From positions 1 through 64,000 of the forward strand of contig JAHBZS010000001.1 in NCBI GenBank assembly GCA_019635285.1: a stretch of 64,000 bases of DNA, in the 5' to 3' direction. Positions 12,074 through 58,359 of the stretch are shown in pieces. Position 1 is the first letter of the stretch. The number at the start of each line of letters is the position of its first letter. The translations under genes were made by a program, and so were the position numbers. This stretch comes from Rubrivivax sp. GTDB lineage: Bacteria > Pseudomonadota > Gammaproteobacteria > Burkholderiales > Burkholderiaceae_C. The notes beneath the pieces are model-generated. The model ran no database searches, was not told the origin of the DNA, and saw only the letters and a program-made list of their open reading frames with translations.

Positions 12074-12295
12074 ATGACGCAAAGTCTGCAAATCAATGAC
12101 AACTTGCACTCGGTTCAGCGGCAATTGATCGAACTTCGCATCGAACACGCGGACATGGACGACATGATCGACCGCCTGGCCCTGAACCTGCCGCAAGACG
12201 ACCTGGCGCTGCGCCGCCTGAAGAAGCGTCGTCTCCTGCTGCGTGACCAGATCGCGCGGCTGGAGTTGGAGCTCGACCCACCGACTCCGGCTTGA
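12074..12295 (+). CDS. YdcH-like DUF465 small protein
   Basis: A 73-residue, highly charged helical protein. DMDDMIDRLAL and LALRRLKKRRLLLRDQI match the DUF465/YdcH pattern of a short antiparallel helical hairpin. Its stop codon overlaps the TTG start of the helicase gene (TTGA at 12292-12295), which implies translational coupling. Function is unknown for the family. Confidence 0.8.
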   Translation: MTQSLQINDNLHSVQRQLIELRIEHADMDDMIDRLALNLPQDDLALRRLKKRRLLLRDQIARLELELDPPTPA

Positions 12296-14259
12296 GCGAG
12301 CTTTCGGAACAGGTCGCGCTCGCTTTCTCGAGCCAGGGCGCGCTGGCGCGCAGCGACCCCCATCTTGCGCAGCGCGAGGCGCAGCAGCAACTGGCGCACC
12401 AGGTGGCGCTGGCCATCGAGCAGCGCGGCGCACTGGTGGCCGAGGCCGGCACCGGGGTCGGCAAGACCTTCGCCTACCTGGTGCCGCTGCTGCTGTCGGG
12501 GCGCCGCGCGCTGGTCAGCACCGCCACCAAGAACCTGCAGGATCAGCTGTTCCTGCGCGATCTGCCGTGGCTGTGCCGCGCGCTGGCCCTGCCGGTGACG
12601 CTGGCGCTGCTGAAGGGGCGGTCCAGCTACCTGTGCCTGCAGCGCCTGCAACAGGCGCGGCAGGGCGCGGAGCTGCCCGACCGCTGGGCCGTGCGCACGC
12701 TGGCGCGGGTCGAAGCCTGGGCCCAGGGCACGCGCAGCGGTGACCTGGCCGAGATCGACGGCCTGGACGACCGTTCGCCGGTGATCCCGCTGGTCACCTC
12801 GACGCGCGAGAACTGCCTGGGCAGCGAATGTCCGCAGTTCAAGAGCTGCCACGTGATGCAGGCGCGGCGCGAGGCCATGGCCGCGGACCTGGTGGTGGTC
12901 AACCACCATCTGTTCTTCGCCGACATGGCGCTGCGCGACAGCGGCGTCGCCGAGCTGCTGCCCACCGTCGATGCAGCGGTGTTCGACGAGGCGCATCAGC
13001 TGGTCGAGGCCGGCGTGCAGTTCCTGGGCACGGGCCTGGGCACGGCGCAACTCATCGACTTTTCACGCGACCTGCTGGCCGTGGGGCTGCAGCAGGCGCG
13101 CGGCCTGCGCGACTGGCAGCGGCTCGCCGGCAGCTTGGAGCAGGCCGCGCGGCAGCTGCGCCTGCGCTGTGCCGGGCCGCTGCGCGACCTGCGCGGGGTG
13201 CTCAAGCTGCGCTGGGACGAACGCGCCGGCACCGACGACTGGGCGGACGGTTTGCAGGCCGTGGCCGAGGCCGCCCAGGCGGTCGACCAGGCCTTGGACG
13301 AGGTCTGCGCCGTGGGCCCGGACTTCGAGAAGCTGCAGCAGCGTGCGCGGGCGCTGGCCGAGCTGGCGGCGCTGTTCGCGCAGCCGGCCGATGCCGACCA
13401 GGTGCGCTGGATCGACGTGTCGCCGCAGCAGGCGCGGCTGGTGCAGTCGCCGCTGGACATCCGCGAGATGCTGACCGAGCAGCGCCGGGCCTCGCCGAAG
13501 GCCTGGATCTTCACCTCGGCCACGCTCGGCGACGACCCGCAGCTGCGCTGGTTCACCGCGTCCACTGGCCTGGAGGATGCGGTGACCCTGCGCGTCGGCA
13601 GCCCCTTCGACTATGCGGCGCATGCGCGTCTGTGGGTGCCGTTGCCCTTTCCCAAGCCCAACGACGCGGGCCATCCCGCCGCGGTGGGCCGGCTGGCGGC
13701 GCGCTGCGCGCGCACGCTGCGTGGCCGCACCTTCGTGCTCACCACCACGCTGCGCGTGCTGCCGCTGATCGCCGACGCGCTGCGCGAGGCGATGGCACGC
13801 GATGGCGCGGCCATCGAGGTGCTGGTGCAGGGCAGCCAGCCCAAGCGTGCGCTGCTGCAGCGCTACGGCGACGGCCGCGACTGCGTGCTCGTCGGCTCGC
13901 AGAGCTTCTGGGAGGGCATCGACGTGCCCGGCGACGCGCTGCAGTGCGTGATCATCGACAAGCTGCCCTTTCCCCCGCCCAACGACCCGCTGGTGCAGGC
14001 GCGCGTGAAGAAGATCGAGGCGCGCGGCGGCAACGCCTTCGGCGAGTATTTCGTCGCCGAGACGGCCGTGTCGCTGAAGCAGGGCGGGGGGCGGCTGATC
14101 CGCAGCGAGAGCGACCGCGGCCTGCTGGTGGTGTGCGACCCGCGGCTGCGGCAGATGAACTACGGCGCGCGCCTGCGCGCGGCGTTGCCGCCGATGGCTG
14201 AGCTGACGCAGGAGGCCGAGGCCTTCGACTGGCTGGCCGATCTGGCCGCCGCACACTAG
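12292..14259 (+). CDS. DinG/YoaA-family ATP-dependent DNA helicase
   Basis: A 655-residue XPD-like superfamily 2 helicase. Walker A is AEAGTGVGKT near residue 57, and the DEAH box is AAVFDEAHQ. Between them lie four cysteines (SYLC, ENCLGSEC, KSCHVM) placed as in iron-sulfur helicases of this family, followed by DLVVVNHHLFF. C-terminal motifs include FTSATLGDDP, VLVGSQSFWEGIDVPG and QGGGRLIRSESDRG. Length is nearer E. coli YoaA than DinG. The TTG start overlaps the previous stop codon; family members unwind 5'-tailed or R-loop/D-loop substrates in DNA repair. Confidence 0.9.
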   Translation: MSELSEQVALAFSSQGALARSDPHLAQREAQQQLAHQVALAIEQRGALVAEAGTGVGKTFAYLVPLLLSGRRALVSTATKNLQDQLFLRDLPWLCRALALPVTLALLKGRSSYLCLQRLQQARQGAELPDRWAVRTLARVEAWAQGTRSGDLAEIDGLDDRSPVIPLVTSTRENCLGSECPQFKSCHVMQARREAMAADLVVVNHHLFFADMALRDSGVAELLPTVDAAVFDEAHQLVEAGVQFLGTGLGTAQLIDFSRDLLAVGLQQARGLRDWQRLAGSLEQAARQLRLRCAGPLRDLRGVLKLRWDERAGTDDWADGLQAVAEAAQAVDQALDEVCAVGPDFEKLQQRARALAELAALFAQPADADQVRWIDVSPQQARLVQSPLDIREMLTEQRRASPKAWIFTSATLGDDPQLRWFTASTGLEDAVTLRVGSPFDYAAHARLWVPLPFPKPNDAGHPAAVGRLAARCARTLRGRTFVLTTTLRVLPLIADALREAMARDGAAIEVLVQGSQPKRALLQRYGDGRDCVLVGSQSFWEGIDVPGDALQCVIIDKLPFPPPNDPLVQARVKKIEARGGNAFGEYFVAETAVSLKQGGGRLIRSESDRGLLVVCDPRLRQMNYGARLRAALPPMAELTQEAEAFDWLADLAAAH

Positions 14260-17520: not shown

Positions 17521-19167
17521 GTGCCCGAACTGCGGCGGCGAGATCGGACGACGCTGCCGCCAGCACGGCGCCGCGCAGGCTCGCGGCGCAACCTGGCCAG
17601 CCGGCGTGGGCGGCGCGGGGCCGACCGCGCCGGCGACGGCAATGGCAGCGGCAGCGGCAACGGCGAACCCGCGGCAGACGGGCCCGCCGAGGAACGCAGG
17701 CACCTGCCGCAGCCCGAGGTCGGCGAGGTCTTCGCCAACGTGCTGTCCGGCGCCTACGACGCCGAGCCGGCGCCGGCCGAAGGCGAGAGCCTGCCGCTGG
17801 TGCCGCCCAAGCGCGTGCTGGCGCCCGATCCCGATGCGCCGAAGCTGCAGAAGGTGCTGGCGCAGGCCGGCATCGGCTCGCGGCGGGACATCGAGCAGCT
17901 GGTACAGGAAGGCCGCATCACCGTCAATGGCGAGCCGGCGCACGTGGGCCAGCGCATTTCCTTTGGTGACCAGCTGCGCATCGACGGCAAGCCGATCAAG
18001 GCGCGCATCGCGCCGCCGCCGCCGCGCGTGCTGGCCTATCACAAGCCGGCCGGCGAGGTGGTCACGCACGACGATCCGCAACACCGGCCCACGGTCTTCC
18101 GCCGCCTGCCGCGGCTGCCGCAGGGCAAGTGGCAGTCGGTGGGCCGCCTGGACATCAATACCGAGGGCCTGCTGCTGTTCACCAACTCGGGCGAACTGGC
18201 CAACCAGCTGATGCATCCGCGCTTCGGTGTCGAGCGCGAATACGCGGTGCGCGTGCTCGGCGCGGTCGACGAGGCCGCGCGCGAGCGGCTGTGCACCGGC
18301 ATCGAGATCGATGGCCAGCCCTGCGCCTTCAAGAGCCTCGAGGACGGCGGCGGCGAAGGCGCCAACCGCTGGTACCGCGTGGTCATCACCGAAGGCCGCA
18401 ACCGCGAGGTGCGCAAGCTGTTCGAGGCGGTGGGCCATGCGGTCAGCCGGCTGATCCGCGTGCGCTACGGTTCGGTGGTGCTGCCGCGCGGCCTGCGCCG
18501 CGGCCTGTGGGTGGACCTGGACGAGGTCGATGTCTGGACGCTGCGGCGCATGGCGCGGCCGGCGCCGCGGCCCCACGGCCCGGCGGCGGAGGGCGCGCCT
18601 GCCGAGGGCGAGCGCCGCGGGCGACGCGGCGGCCGCAAGGGGCGCAACCCCAACGACGCGCGTCGCGACGGCGGCCAGAACGACCCCAACGCACGCCGCG
18701 AGGGCGGCGACCGCGCGGCGCGCTTCGAAGGCGGGCCGATTCCGAATCCGCTGCAGCAGAACTTCGACAAGCGGGCCTTCCAGCAGGCGCGTGCGCAGCG
18801 CGAGATCAACGAGGACGGCCCGATCCCCAACCCGCTGCAGCAGACCTTCGACAAGCGCGCCATCCAGCAGGAGCGCACGCGCCGCCCCGAGATCAGCGAA
18901 GACGGCCCGATCCCCAACCCGCTGCAGCAGACCTACGACAAGCGCTTCGTGCAGAAGGGCGGCGGCCTGCCGCAAGGCCGCGGCGCCGGTGGCCGCAACA
19001 AGTCGCCGTCCACGCCGCGCCAGCCCGACCCGATGCAGACCGCGGTGGGCTACATCGGCGCCGACACCTTCCTGCGCAAGGGCGCCGGCAACCGGGGCGG
19101 CGGCCGCTCCGGGCGCGGCGGCAAGCCCGGTCGCGGCGGCGGCGGCGGCGGGGGACGCGGCCGCTGA
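17521..19167 (+). CDS. rluB: 23S rRNA pseudouridine synthase RluB
   Basis: Pseudouridine synthase of the RsuA/RluB/E/F family, modifying U2605 of 23S rRNA by homology. From GTG 17521 it has 548 residues. It begins with an Arg-rich basic segment, then an S4 domain ([19 protein letters not shown]). The catalytic domain has [15 protein letters not shown], with its nucleophile Asp, and [16 protein letters not shown]. The C-terminal 190 residues are basic and repetitive, with three GPIPNPLQQ-type motifs and an RGG-like Gly/Arg end. The true N-terminus probably lies at 17262 in a different frame. GTG 17521 is only the first start in the open frame and is not strongly supported. Confidence 0.85.
18733..18945 (+). 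repeat. Triplicated [12 protein letters not shown] motif in the rluB tail
   Basis: Three copies of a 14-residue motif, GPIPNPLQQ(N/T)(F/Y)DKR, are encoded at 18733-18774, 18817-18858 and 18904-18945. Spacing is 84 and 87 bases with charged linkers between. The DNA copies differ at synonymous positions, so the repeats look selected at protein level and are not recent duplications. A role in RNA binding is a guess. Confidence 0.8.
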
Positions 19168-35777: not shown

Positions 35778-38000
35778 TTGTTGAGCGAAGTCGAGGGTCA
35801 GGTCGAAGGCCACCAGGACGGGCACGGCTTCGTGCGCCGCGACGACGGCGGGCCGACCATCTATCTCTCGCCGCAGGAGATGCGCGCGGTGCTGCACCGC
35901 GACCGCGTGCGCGTGCGCATCGTGCGCTACGACCGCAAGGGGCGACCCGAAGGCCGCGTGCTCGACATCGTCGAGCGGCGCAAGGCGCCGATCATCGGCC
36001 GCCTGCTGCACGAGGCCGGCATCTGGCTGGTGGCGCCCGAAGACCGGCGCTACGGCCAGGACATCATGGTGCCGAAGAACGCCACGGCCAATGCCGTGGT
36101 CGGGCAGGTGGTGTCGATCGAGCTGACCGAGGCGCCGTCGATGTACTCGCAGCCGATGGGCCGCGTGATCGAGGTGCTGGGCGAGATCGACGACCCCGGC
36201 ATGGAGATCGAGATCGCGGTGCGCAAGTACGAGGTGCCGCACCGCTTCTCGCCGGAGACGCTGGCACAGGCGGCTGCGTTGCCCGACAAGCTGCGCCCGG
36301 CGGACCGCCGCCACCGCATCGACCTGAGCGACGTGCCGCTGGTGACCATCGACGGCGAGGACGCGCGCGACTTCGACGACGCGGTGTACTGCGAGCCCTT
36401 CGTGCGCGGCCGCGGCAAGAGCCGGGTCGAGGGCTGGCGGCTGATCGTCGCCATCGCCGACGTGAGCCACTACGTCAAGCCCGGCGAGCCGATCGATGCC
36501 GACGCCTACGAGCGCGCCACGTCGGTGTACTTCCCGCGCCGCGTCATTCCGATGCTGCCGGAGAAGCTGTCCAACGGCCTGTGCTCGCTGAACCCTGAAG
36601 CCGACCGCCTGGCGATGGTCTGCGACATGGTCATCGACACCGAGGGCGCCATCGATGCCTACCAGTTCTATCCGGCGACGATCTGCTCGCACGCGCGGCT
36701 GACCTACACCGAAGTGGCCGCGGTGCTGGCCAACACGCGCGGCCCCGAGGCCAAGGCCCGCGCCGACCTGGTGCCGCACCTGCTGCACCTGCACGAGGTC
36801 TACCGCGCATTGCTGAAGCAGCGTGCCCGGCGCGGCGCGGTGGACTTCGAGACCACCGAGACGCAGATCGTCTGCGACGAGAACGGCCGCATCGAGAAGA
36901 TCGTGCCGCGCACGCGCAACGAGGCGCACAAGCTCATCGAAGAGGCCATGCTGGCGGCCAACGAATGCGCGGCCGGCTTCATCGAAGCCGCCGGCCATCC
37001 GGCGCTGTTCCGCGTGCACGAAGGCCCGACGCCGGAGCGCCGGGTCACGCTGCAGAACTACCTGCGCGCGCTGGGCATCGGCCTGCACCTGAGCGACGAC
37101 CCGACGCCGGGTGAGTTGCAGAACATCGCGCTGGCCACCAAGGACCGGCCGGACGTGACGCAGATCCACACGATGCTGCTGCGTTCGATGCAGCAGGCCG
37201 TGTACACCAGCGCCAATGCCGGCCACTTCGGCCTGGCCTACCGCGCCTATGCGCACTTCACCAGCCCGATCCGGCGCTACCCCGACCTGCTGGTGCACCG
37301 GGTCATCAAGGCCATCCTCGGCGAGAAGCGCTATCAGCTGGATGCGGCGCTGGTGGCCAGCCTGCCGCAGGCACCGCCGCGCCGCGGCGCCAAGCCGGGC
37401 GCGGCCAAGCCGGCCAAGGCGATGAGCAAGGAGCTGGAGACCTGGGAGCTGGCCGGCGCGCATTGCAGCGCCAACGAACGCCGCGCCGACGAGGCCTCGC
37501 GCGATGTCGAAGCCTGGCTCAAGTGCCGCTTCATGCGCGAGCATCTGGGCGAGGAGTATTCCGGCACGGTCAGCGCCATCACCAGCTTCGGCCTGTTCGT
37601 CACGCTCGATGCACTGTACGTCGAAGGCCTGGTGCACATCACCGAACTGGGCGGCGAGTACTACCGCTTCGACGAGGTGCACCAGGAACTGCGCGGCGAG
37701 CGCTCCGGCGCGCGTTATGCCGTGGGCACGCGTGTGCGTGTGCAGGTCAGCCGCGTCGACTTGGACAGCCGGCGCATCGATTTCCGCCTGGTGCGCGACG
37801 CCGAACTGGGCCCGCCGCAGACGCGCGGGCGCGGCGAGCGGGCGCGTGCGGCGAGTGCGGTCGATGAGTTGAAGTCCGTGCAGGAGGCCGACCGCGCCGG
37901 CAAGGCGGCGGTGCGCCACAAGGCCGGCAAGAAGGCGGTTGGCGGCACGGCCAAGGCGGTGCGCAAGACGGGCAAGACGCCACCGCGCACGCGCCGCTAA
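35778..38000 (+). CDS. rnr: Ribonuclease R
   Basis: A 740-residue 3'-5' exoribonuclease of the RNB family that degrades structured RNA. Order: cold-shock domains (EGHQDGHGFVRRDD, then IVERRKAPIIGRLL), catalytic RNB domain (IDGEDARDFDDAVYC with the metal-binding aspartates, later YAHFTSPIRRYPDLLVHR), S1 domain (EYSGTVSAITSFGLFVTLD), and a Lys/Arg-rich tail. It is shorter than E. coli RNase R (813 residues); the N-terminal helix-turn-helix domain is missing. The first possible start is TTG 35778 (or 35781), without a clear ribosome-binding site, and the open frame upstream runs into the tRNA gene. The TAA stop is in the first unit of the 11-bp array. Confidence 0.93.
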   Translation: MLSEVEGQVEGHQDGHGFVRRDDGGPTIYLSPQEMRAVLHRDRVRVRIVRYDRKGRPEGRVLDIVERRKAPIIGRLLHEAGIWLVAPEDRRYGQDIMVPKNATANAVVGQVVSIELTEAPSMYSQPMGRVIEVLGEIDDPGMEIEIAVRKYEVPHRFSPETLAQAAALPDKLRPADRRHRIDLSDVPLVTIDGEDARDFDDAVYCEPFVRGRGKSRVEGWRLIVAIADVSHYVKPGEPIDADAYERATSVYFPRRVIPMLPEKLSNGLCSLNPEADRLAMVCDMVIDTEGAIDAYQFYPATICSHARLTYTEVAAVLANTRGPEAKARADLVPHLLHLHEVYRALLKQRARRGAVDFETTETQIVCDENGRIEKIVPRTRNEAHKLIEEAMLAANECAAGFIEAAGHPALFRVHEGPTPERRVTLQNYLRALGIGLHLSDDPTPGELQNIALATKDRPDVTQIHTMLLRSMQQAVYTSANAGHFGLAYRAYAHFTSPIRRYPDLLVHRVIKAILGEKRYQLDAALVASLPQAPPRRGAKPGAAKPAKAMSKELETWELAGAHCSANERRADEASRDVEAWLKCRFMREHLGEEYSGTVSAITSFGLFVTLDALYVEGLVHITELGGEYYRFDEVHQELRGERSGARYAVGTRVRVQVSRVDLDSRRIDFRLVRDAELGPPQTRGRGERARAASAVDELKSVQEADRAGKAAVRHKAGKKAVGGTAKAVRKTGKTPPRTRR

Positions 38001-38118
38001 CGTCTCACTAGTGCTCCGTTAGCGCCGCACTAGCGCCGCACTAGCGTCGCACTAGCGCCGCACTAGCGCCGCACTAGCGCCGCACTAACGCCGCACTAAC
38101 GCCGCACTAACGCCGCAA
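37998..38118. repeat. 11-bp tandem repeat array with stops in all six frames
   Basis: Eleven consecutive 11-bp units, consensus TAGCGCCGCAC, fill the gap between two convergent genes. Five units are perfect (from 38020, 38031, 38053, 38064 and 38075). 38042 has one change. 38086 and 38097 have TAA for TAG, 38108 has two changes, and the first two (37998, 38009) are degenerate. Every unit from 38020 to 38107 carries TAG or TAA on the plus strand and TAG on the minus strand across unit joints. Because 11 is not a multiple of 3, three units cover all three frames on each strand. Six CTAG tetramers occur in 70 bases. No hairpin or T-run is formed. Confidence 0.95.
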
Positions 38119-39663
38119 GGGCGTTCGGCGCAGCGCGGCCGTCTCGCGCATCTGCTCGCTCAGGTCGCCGGCAGGCAGCGCCAGGCTGCCCGGCGCTCGC
38201 GCCAGCAGGCGATCGGCGGCACGGCCGTGCAGCCAGGCGGCGGCTTCGGTGGCCCAGCGTGCCGCCTGCGGATCGGAGGTGTCGGCCTGCGCCCAGAACG
38301 CGCCGATCCAGCCGGCCAGCACGTCGCCGCTGCCGCCCCCCGCGAGCAGGCCGTTGCCGGTGGGGTTGAGGGTCGGTGCGCCGGCAGGGCCGGCGATGAT
38401 GCTGCCCGAGCCCTTCAGCAGCACCACGCAGCGGTGCCTGGCGGCCAACTCGCGTGCGGCGCGCAGCCGATCGGCTTGCACCTGCGCCGCATCGCAGCCC
38501 AGCAGGCGCGCCGCCTCCAGCGGGTGCGGCGTCAGCACCGTGGCCTGGCCGCGCCCGGCGCGGGCGTCGAGCAGCGTGCGCAGGGCTTCGTCGGCGGCCA
38601 GCGCGTTCAGCGCGTCGGCATCGAGCAGCAGGCGCGCGCTGCGCGACAGCACGGTAGGCAGCGCGTCGCGCACCGCCGAGCCGCCGCCGCAGCCGCAGAC
38701 CACCGTGCTGCGCGCCAGCCGCGCGGGGTCGTGGCGCCAAGCGTCCCGGCGCAGCATCAGCTCGGGCCGCAGCGGGTCGCCGGACGGGGCCTGCGCGTCG
38801 AGCAGGCTGACGAAGACGCGCCCGGCGCCCGCGGCCAAGGCCGCACGTCCGGCCAGCCAGGCCGCGCCTGTCATGCCTGCGGCGCCCCCCACCACCAGCA
38901 GGTCGCCGAAGCTGCCCTTGTGGCTGGCGTGGGCGCGCGGCGCCAGGCCGTCCAGCACGTCGGCGCCCGTCAAGCGCGCGGTGGCCTCGGCGCCCGTGAC
39001 GTCCACGCCCAGCGTGTCGAGCCAGATCTGCCCGGCATGGTCGCGGCCGGCCGCGGTGAACAGGCCCGGCTTCAACGTCAGCAGCGACAGCGTGTGCGTG
39101 GCCACCACGGTGTCGCCGCCGAGCCGCTGGCCGGTGTCGGCGGACAGGCCGGAGGGCAGGTCCACCGCCAGGATGTCGGCCTGCAGCGCACGCAGGCGGG
39201 CGATGGCGCCGGCGATCGCCCCTTGCGGCGGGCGCGCGGCGCCGAGCCCGAGCAGGGCGTCGATGGCCAGATCCACCGGCGTCTCGTCGGACAGCGGGGC
39301 GATCGACAGCCCGGCTTGCAGCGCCTCGTGCCAGGCATGGCGCGCGTCGTCGGGCAGGCGCTGCGCGTCGCCGAACAGCGTGGCGCTGACCGACCGGCCC
39401 GCACGCAGCAACCAGGTGGCGGCCACCAGCCCATCGCCGCCGTTGTTGCCGGGCCCGCAGGCCACCCACACGTGGCGGGCATGCGGGGCCACGGCCAGCG
39501 CCAGCCGGGCGACGGCCTGCCCGGCACGCTGCATCAGCGCGTGCGGCGCATGGCGCGCCAGCGCGGCGGCCTCGAGGGCGCGCGACGCGGCCACGTCGTG
39601 CAGCGCGCAGGCGGCATCGCCGGGCAGGATGCGCAGTGGGCTGGCAGGGCGGGGCGCGGTCAT
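38107..39663 (-). CDS. nnr: Bifunctional NAD(P)H-hydrate epimerase / ADP-dependent dehydratase
   Basis: A 518-residue fusion that repairs damaged NAD(P)H hydrates. The N-terminal YjeF_N epimerase has ACGPGNNGGDGLVAATWLL and AVDLPSGLSADTG. The C-terminal carbohydrate-kinase-like dehydratase has SHKGSFGDLLVVGG, VLTPHPLEAARLLG and LAGGGSGDVLAGWIGAF, the nucleotide-binding and catalytic motif. The stop codon TAG falls inside the 11-bp repeat array, so its last residues (TPLRR) are partly repeat-encoded. It is the last gene of an amidase-dadA-nnr minus-strand set. Confidence 0.95.
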   Translation of the reverse strand: MTAPRPASPLRILPGDAACALHDVAASRALEAAALARHAPHALMQRAGQAVARLALAVAPHARHVWVACGPGNNGGDGLVAATWLLRAGRSVSATLFGDAQRLPDDARHAWHEALQAGLSIAPLSDETPVDLAIDALLGLGAARPPQGAIAGAIARLRALQADILAVDLPSGLSADTGQRLGGDTVVATHTLSLLTLKPGLFTAAGRDHAGQIWLDTLGVDVTGAEATARLTGADVLDGLAPRAHASHKGSFGDLLVVGGAAGMTGAAWLAGRAALAAGAGRVFVSLLDAQAPSGDPLRPELMLRRDAWRHDPARLARSTVVCGCGGGSAVRDALPTVLSRSARLLLDADALNALAADEALRTLLDARAGRGQATVLTPHPLEAARLLGCDAAQVQADRLRAARELAARHRCVVLLKGSGSIIAGPAGAPTLNPTGNGLLAGGGSGDVLAGWIGAFWAQADTSDPQAARWATEAAAWLHGRAADRLLARAPGSLALPAGDLSEQMRETAALRRTPLRR

Positions 39664-57534: not shown

Positions 57535-58359
57535 TCAGTAGATCAGCCGGTCCGGCCGGATGTCGCGCAGGATGGTGGTGGCGATTTCTTCGATCGACTT
57601 GTGCGTCGACGACAGCCAGGCGATGCCGGCCTTGCGCATCATCAGTTCGGCTTCCAGCACCTCGTAGCGGCAGTTCTCCAGCGACGCGTACTTGCTGCCC
57701 GGGCGGCGCTCGTTGCGGATCTGTGCCAGCCGCTGCGGGTTGATCGACAGGCCGAAACACTTGGACTTGTAGGTGGCCAGCGCCTGCGGCAGCCGGCCGC
57801 GCTCGAAGTCCTCGGGAATCAGCGGGTAGTTGGCCGCCTTGACGCCGTGCTGCATCGCCAGGTACAGCGAGGTCGGCGTCTTGCCGCTGCGGCTGACGCC
57901 CACCAGCACCACGTCGGCCTGCTCCAGGTTGCGCGAGGACTGGCCGTCGTCGTGCTCGAGCGAGAAGTTGATGGCGTCGATGCGTCCGTGGTATTCCTCG
58001 CTCTTGGCGGCGTCGGAGAAGCGGCCGATGCGGTGGTTGGACTTGACGCCGAACTCCTCCTCCAGCGGCTGGACGAAGGTGCTGAACATGTCCAGCACTA
58101 GGCCCTTGCAGGTCTCGGTGGTGAGCACGCGCCGCACTTCGTCGTTGACCAGCGTGACGAAGACGATGGGGCGCTTGCCCTCGCGGTCGGCGGCCTCGTT
58201 GATCTCCTGCAGCACGCCCAGCGCCTTGTCCACGCTGTCGATGAAGGGCCGTCGCACATGGCGCGGGCGTGCCGGAAACTGCGCCAGGATCGAATTGCCG
58301 AAGGTTTCGGCGGTGATGCCGGTGCCGTCCGACACGAAGAACACGGTGCGATTGGGCAT
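57535..58359 (-). CDS. ppsR: PEP synthase regulatory kinase/pyrophosphorylase
   Basis: A 274-residue DUF299 protein that switches PEP synthase on and off by phosphorylating or dephosphorylating a Thr next to its active His. RTVFFVSDGTGITAETFGNS begins it, the P-loop-like motif is VGVSRSGKTPTSLYLA, and KCFGLSINPQRLAQIRNERR follows. It is divergent from its target ppsA across about 200 bases. Confidence 0.97.
   Translation of the reverse strand: MPNRTVFFVSDGTGITAETFGNSILAQFPARPRHVRRPFIDSVDKALGVLQEINEAADREGKRPIVFVTLVNDEVRRVLTTETCKGLVLDMFSTFVQPLEEEFGVKSNHRIGRFSDAAKSEEYHGRIDAINFSLEHDDGQSSRNLEQADVVLVGVSRSGKTPTSLYLAMQHGVKAANYPLIPEDFERGRLPQALATYKSKCFGLSINPQRLAQIRNERRPGSKYASLENCRYEVLEAELMMRKAGIAWLSSTHKSIEEIATTILRDIRPDRLIY

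Follow-up and report, generated by a model that had tools for sequence, protein, structure and literature searches.

The rnr gene, encoding ribonuclease R, occupies positions 35778..38000 on the plus strand of the window (the whole stretch of DNA analysed here, 64,000 nucleotides long). This assignment follows from the open reading frame and its translation, the gene caller and the match to the TIGR02063 RNase_R profile (779.9 bits at a cut-off of 597.85). The rnr start codon is uncertain (35778 or 35781), and the TAA stop lies at 37998-38000. The convergent nnr gene (NAD(P)H-hydrate epimerase/dehydratase) is located on the minus strand at 38107..39663, where the TIGR00196 (173 bits) and TIGR00197 (114.8 bits) profiles both score above cut-off; it ends in the codons TTG CGG CGT (Leu-Arg-Arg) followed by a TAG stop at 38107-38109. 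The profile matches confirm the names given to both genes in the original prediction. The DNA is GC-rich with antisense shadow ORFs, and the gene caller was seeded with rnr, nnr and the next gene; predicted genes should be taken as approximate.

Between and partly over the two gene ends lies a tandem array. A unit-by-unit comparison clearly showed that the 121 bp at 37998-38118 consist of exactly eleven 11-mers with the consensus TAGCGCCGCAC, units 1-11 matching it at 8, 6, 11, 11, 10, 11, 11, 11, 10, 10 and 9 of 11 positions. The eleven units claimed originally are thus present as an exact split into 11-mers, but only nine of them are clear (38020..38118, plus strand, 9 to 11 of 11 matches); TRF delimits the array to 38020-38117, with period 11, 8.9 copies and 96% matches. 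The variants among the nine clear units are three TAACGCCGCAC/A on the nnr side and one TAGCGTCGCAC. The other two units, TAACGTCTCAC and TAGTGCTCCGT (37998..38019, plus strand), are decayed and stand in register with the rest. Their 8 and 6 matches should be compared with chance levels, at least eight matches being found at 0.0035 of the window positions and at least six at 0.073, so that the second decayed unit is weak. The units adjoining rnr are therefore the decayed ones, and the inner units are near-identical. As predicted, both stop codons lie within the array, the rnr TAA in unit 1 and the nnr TAG on the minus strand. The strictly intergenic space is 106 bp (38001-38106), and the array does not fill it exactly, as had been proposed, but reaches beyond it to cover the two stop codons and, in unit 11, the final three codons of nnr.

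The array contains CTAG six times (38008, 38030, 38041, 38052, 38063 and 38074), and the scarcity of this tetramer, also part of the original prediction, was confirmed: a 455.6-kb sample of the same genome contains 89 copies vs. 426 expected from the CTA, TAG and TA counts, i.e., about a fifth of the expectation. Six of the 14 CTAGs in the window lie inside the array. A frame-by-frame check likewise upheld the claim that a stop is met within 33 bp in all six frames, 33 bp being the longest distance to the next stop in each of them. The array thus consists of head-to-tail, high-identity copies of one short unit, as expected for bacterial short-unit tandem repeats; the units are contiguous, with no unique spacers between them of the kind found in CRISPR arrays.

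The folding of RNA from both strands of 37990-38125 was then compared with shuffled sequences. The nnr-sense (minus-strand) RNA gave -86.8 kcal/mol with z -5.2, none of 200 shuffles being as good, and a rerun with 60 shuffles and slightly other ends gave z -4.1. The fold is a ladder of self-complementary units with G-U pairs: with G-U allowed, the nnr-sense unit pairs with itself, so that its repeats stack one upon another. The rnr-sense (plus-strand) RNA has A and C opposed at those pairing places and is not unusual (-57.2 kcal/mol, z -1.7); an unusually stable hairpin is thus predicted for one strand and not for both. No T-run terminator site was found on either strand of 37600-38500, nor was an intrinsic (bidirectional) terminator with a GC-rich hairpin and a T-run. 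The original statement that neither a hairpin nor a T-run exists is therefore right as to the T-run and wrong as to the hairpin, which is present in the nnr-sense RNA. A search of 13 loci against Rfam at the gathering score, including the one that holds this junction, yielded only two tRNAs. Bidirectional intrinsic terminators lie between convergent genes, and the array resembles them in its location and its self-complementary sequence on one strand, but differs from them in having no terminator-like site and a strong fold on one strand only. The bacterial REP and BIME elements are dispersed extragenic palindromes; the array is likewise extragenic with a quasi-palindromic unit, but it is built of contiguous 11-bp tandem units and occupies a single genomic place.

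A pattern search of the same genome revealed no second array of this unit, and three CTAGs at 11-bp spacing were found nowhere but at the array. Nor was the array found in any of 80 other same-genus genomes (allowing up to 3 mismatches); 24 of them gave one or two scattered 3-mismatch matches, and a reversed control behaved alike. The junction of L031, the closest relative read (rnr 93-94% identical), has no array, and only 8 bp separate its two stops; the array is also absent from the junction of another close relative, L032. By these measures the array is specific to its lineage, but the same unit occurs in a member of the Burkholderiaceae belonging to another genus (L080). The check proposed originally, a search for TAGCGCCGCAC arrays elsewhere, thus turned up none in the same genome or the 80 genus genomes and one at the same junction in another genus.

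An exact two-unit scan of a species-level collection, from which records like our own may have been left out, gave six stretches: 2 copies in Ideonella (L081), 2 in a member of the Burkholderiaceae (L084), 2.8 in Herbaspirillum (L082), 3.3 in Bacteroidales (L083), 3.9 in Paenibacillus (L085) and 7.5 in L080. Among 399 genomes of the order, the pattern matched our genome and, once, G376, and the reversed control matched three genomes once each. Among 399 genomes of the family, seven had a match and runs of at least three units occurred only in our genome and in G729, which agrees with the L080 genome (G479) in contig number and match ends. The reversed control matched 19 of these 399 genomes, some several times, so that single matches carry no weight. 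Its repeated matches within single genomes (6 in G019, 5 in G882 and 4 in G885) may represent arrays of another 11-mer. Judged by sequence matching, the recurrence of the 11-mer does not appear to exceed chance, with the exception of one Bacteroidales genome (G482; 41 matches vs. 0 for the control). No match was found in 20,395 E. coli, 72,556 plasmid or 50,697 phage records, and viral contigs did not contain two units as an exact match; a mobile or viral origin was accordingly rejected. A general 11-bp periodicity downstream of genes was also rejected: lag 11 was not prominent in 141 segments of our genome or in 145 of G482.

To place the array in context, the rnr-nnr junction was compared across the genus. 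We read 71 rnr loci (30 from the first rnr search, 40 more, and L080), of which 68 included the rnr stop; omitted from the junction counts were nine of the 79 genus genomes with an rnr match and three loci whose contig breaks off ahead of the stop. The nnr gene is convergent with rnr in 63 of the 68 junctions with L080, i.e., in 62 of the 67 genus junctions, our own included; among the five without nnr is L164, where the sequence ends 170 bases in. The gap between the stops is at most 50 bp in 39 of the 62 convergent genus junctions. In two genomes, rnr was matched in two pieces (G040:C141:33102-35134) or carries one internal TAG (G071:C289:23480-25705), each a possible frameshift, assembly error or pseudogene.

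Seven of the 67 genus junctions (L156, L180, L154, L051, L036, L038 and L175) have an array of some other unit across the rnr stop. The periods are 26 (three arrays), 29 (two arrays), 31 and 32, with 1.9-5.1 copies and 72-97% matches; our own array is not counted among them, since TRF places its start 22 bp beyond the rnr stop. The background was estimated from 1.26 Mb of eight genus genomes, where 6 of 1099 predicted stops bear an array, our own array included. The six include L306, whose predicted stop falls within predicted coding sequence, so that the gene end called there may be wrong. The comparison of 7/67 with 6/1099 gives an odds ratio of 21 and a p of 2e-6, which is generous, as the genomes are related and the seven include three weak arrays (L175 with 1.9 copies at 79%, L038 with 2.2 at 81%, and L036 with 72% matches). 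Two control genes at convergent junctions (57535-58359 and 12292-14259; 30 loci each, among 79 and 75 genomes with a match) had such arrays in 0 of 30 loci each, and the excess at rnr has a p of 0.07 against each of them alone. L182 has a lower-scoring 11-bp array on its rnr end CGG CGC TGA, made up of 2.5 copies of CGGCGCTGAGC with 100% matches. The recurrence of stop-spanning arrays with different units across the genus makes the rnr-nnr junction a natural system for the study of gene-end slippage.

We consider the array most probably a short-unit tandem repeat (minisatellite) that is specific to its lineage and grew by replication slippage from a gene end. We infer that its seed was likely the nnr end CGG CGT TAG (Arg-Arg-stop), the minus-strand unit being this end plus two bases. 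Slippage at such a GC-rich Arg-Arg-stop end would have produced a duplication, later slippage would have amplified it, and the expansion may have been tolerated in the short space between two convergent gene ends. The decayed units on the rnr side and the near-identical inner units fit such an amplification. The properties which make the array look designed, namely the six-frame stops and the evenly spaced CTAG, would be produced by a slipped unit with a stop codon: each copy inherits the stop codon of the unit that was duplicated; the 11-bp period, not being divisible by three, shifts the stops from frame to frame; and CTA reads as TAG on the complementary strand, so that stops occur on both. 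The array probably has no selected function. Of the options named in the original prediction, a variable-number repeat thus fits best, in a comparison of one genome per species; the array may nevertheless bind protein or act at the transcript level.

Acting as an all-frame stop, as originally predicted, the array would end the read-through of either gene, and the stop within 33 bp in six frames is in keeping with this. Such closure is automatic, however, once a unit with a stop is repeated at a period that is not a multiple of three. Selection for an all-frame stop should leave few stop-spanning arrays with a period divisible by three. In the 1.26 Mb of the genus, 4 of the 15 stop-spanning arrays (TRF score at least 55) have one, close to the third that chance alone would give. 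The claim is thus unsupported, and a selected all-frame stop was rejected as the main reading. Furthermore, 45 of 59 junctions, L080 among the 59, have no TRF array at a score of at least 40, and our genome, in which 315 of 404 predicted genes end with TGA, has no second array of this kind. On the other side, periods divisible by three are absent from the eight strong arrays at the rnr junction (our own plus the seven), an outcome with a probability of about 0.04. They are also more frequent in the other arrays located outside predicted genes (14 of 24) than in those that span stops (4 of 15; p 0.10), although some of the 24 may sit in genes missed by the caller. These two comparisons lean against the slippage reading and toward avoidance; all in all, we regard a selected all-frame stop as highly improbable. 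The hairpin offers another possibility, that the array is a 3′ end structure of the nnr mRNA, where a G-U-tolerant hairpin would stop the transcript or protect it against 3′ exonucleases, RNase R included. This is in line with the fold of the nnr-sense RNA, as well as with the folding of 59 of the 63 junctions (our own and L080 included; four with an overlap of more than 30 bp or a gap of more than 200 were omitted), of which 8 of 59 had a z below -3 for one strand or both, vs. 8 of 131 other convergent junctions (p 0.10). One of the junctions (L047) has both stops inside a single perfect 24-bp palindrome. Yet the mean z of the 59 junctions (-0.90 on both strands) is little below that of the 131 others (-0.67 and -0.59), no T-run follows the array, and a self-pairing unit folds once repeated, whether selected or not. 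The L080 array of the same unit folds no better than shuffles (z 0.05 and +1.39), which shows that the hairpin is not a common property; we therefore rejected it as a conserved function, and consider it unlikely as the explanation of the array. As to the junctions with large rnr-nnr overlaps, those in L058 and L169 probably reflect a missed nnr end.

A role on the other strand, as a Rho-dependent termination region for rnr, would rest on the rnr-sense RNA being C-rich and G-poor with a C-bearing unit every 11 nt; the C over G skew of the 110 nt after rnr, +0.278, is in the 98th percentile of 399 gene ends of our genome sample. This composition, however, is a by-product of one repeated unit, the relatives have no array, and in L080 the inverted array puts the G-rich strand on rnr. 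RNA structure hinders Rho binding, and the predicted rnr-sense fold amounts to -57.2 kcal/mol. Such a region thus seems hardly probable at all. Finally, the array might have come by descent or transfer from a lineage like that of L080, or be a copy of a dispersed element. It is true that the same unit is found at the same junction in the other genus, and that similar units are dispersed in G482, but the orientations are opposite, the L080 rnr is only 74% identical to ours, and neither the phage, plasmid and E. coli records nor the viral contigs gave a match. With the array missing from L031 and L032 and the orientations differing, shared descent is unlikely, and we find inheritance or transfer very unlikely.

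The L080 array deserves closer consideration. It comprises 7.5 copies of the unit of our array and is inverted, such that GCGGCGTTAGT runs along rnr in L080 and along nnr in our genome. In both cases, the gene end matching the unit is CGG CGT TAG (Arg-Arg-stop), that of rnr in L080 and that of nnr here. The simplest account is that the two arrays expanded separately from seeds of one kind, each taking its orientation from the gene that supplied the seed. Under a purely random process, the same unit would rarely appear, inverted, at the same junction; the common CGG CGT TAG seed softens this coincidence, but does not remove it.

In G482 (L083 and L117-L136), a metagenome-assembled Bacteroidales genome, the 41 matches to the two-unit pattern were obtained with up to 2 mismatches, and arrays of 11-bp units resembling TAGCGTCGCAC lie at 25 places. 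Among the 20 of these places that were fetched, four have a predicted stop within 40 bp upstream; each of these four stops is TAG and keeps the register of the units. Two places, L130 and L131, are predicted to form very strong hairpins (z -8 to -11). The G482 arrays are a separate lead, and are no evidence of a function for our array. Four other genomes of its genus (G524, G533, G497 and G530) have regions downstream of genes (L201-L206) with short tandem periodicities differing by genome (7 and 14; 7, 8 and 16; 6, 18 and 24; 22), as judged from small samples of 5 to 25 segments picked near pattern matches.

A broader interpretation would be that stop-anchored 11-bp arrays are a recurrent class of elements, in which independent lineages expand a stop codon into similar 11-mers containing CTAG or CTAA. 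The lineages concerned would be the two genera with the array at rnr-nnr in opposite orientation and the Bacteroidales genome with its 25 places, where the TAG of a nearby gene end itself serves as a unit. Eleven base pairs make about one turn of an A-form helix, and a stop repeated at about one such turn per unit might form a selected 3′ end structure or a barrier. We consider this quite unlikely, but if the recurrence of similar 11-mers in distant lineages is not due to chance, they would represent a new class of stop-anchored elements.

The interpretation as a slippage-grown repeat places the array within the known class of short-unit tandem repeats, which it fits. Long simple sequence repeats with units of 5-11 nt are a described bacterial class (Mrazek et al. 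2007, as described in PMC4679880), and Burkholderia species are among the ten genomes richest in them, according to PMC4679880. Our array is like those described there in its head-to-tail, near-identical short units and in slippage as the proposed origin (PMC4679880), and differs from them in lying on two stops at a convergent junction, with 11 bp being the upper limit of unit length. PMC4679880 also describes TAACTGA heptamer repeats, phylogenetically scattered over Beggiatoaceae, Cyanobacteria and Bacteroidetes, which close all three forward frames; the BOGUAY genome has 169 sets, most of them immediately before start codons, and in 13 cases the repeats overlap the stop of the upstream gene, the author noting that stops limit their possible positions. 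The likeness to our array consists in a short tandem unit, stops in all three forward frames and a scattered phylogeny, but these are 7-bp repeats with many sets near starts, and our unit is unrelated to theirs and forms one array at two gene ends. Membership of the TAACTGA family was thus rejected, the unit being TAGCGCCGCAC at one place. In searches of open-licence papers, no title among the matches listed dealt with the rnr-nnr junction or the unit, and queries with the letters of the unit in three forms retrieved, by title, none on bacterial repeats.

Other tandem arrays were noted in the course of this work. In the same genome, a 58-bp array of 3.9 copies (L067:18057-18287) starts exactly at a predicted TGA stop, so that each unit carries TGA, and a 26/52-bp array (L070:903-1035) lies over another predicted stop. 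A 54-bp array of 6.2 copies (L065) is in no predicted gene and at no stop, which means that stops are not the sole seeds. Within the window, an 87-bp (29-codon) repeat of 2.6 copies is found at 18726-18945, inside the predicted gene 17521-19167. In G045, an 83-bp array of 10 copies at 96% (L295:11859-12689) reaches a predicted gene stop.
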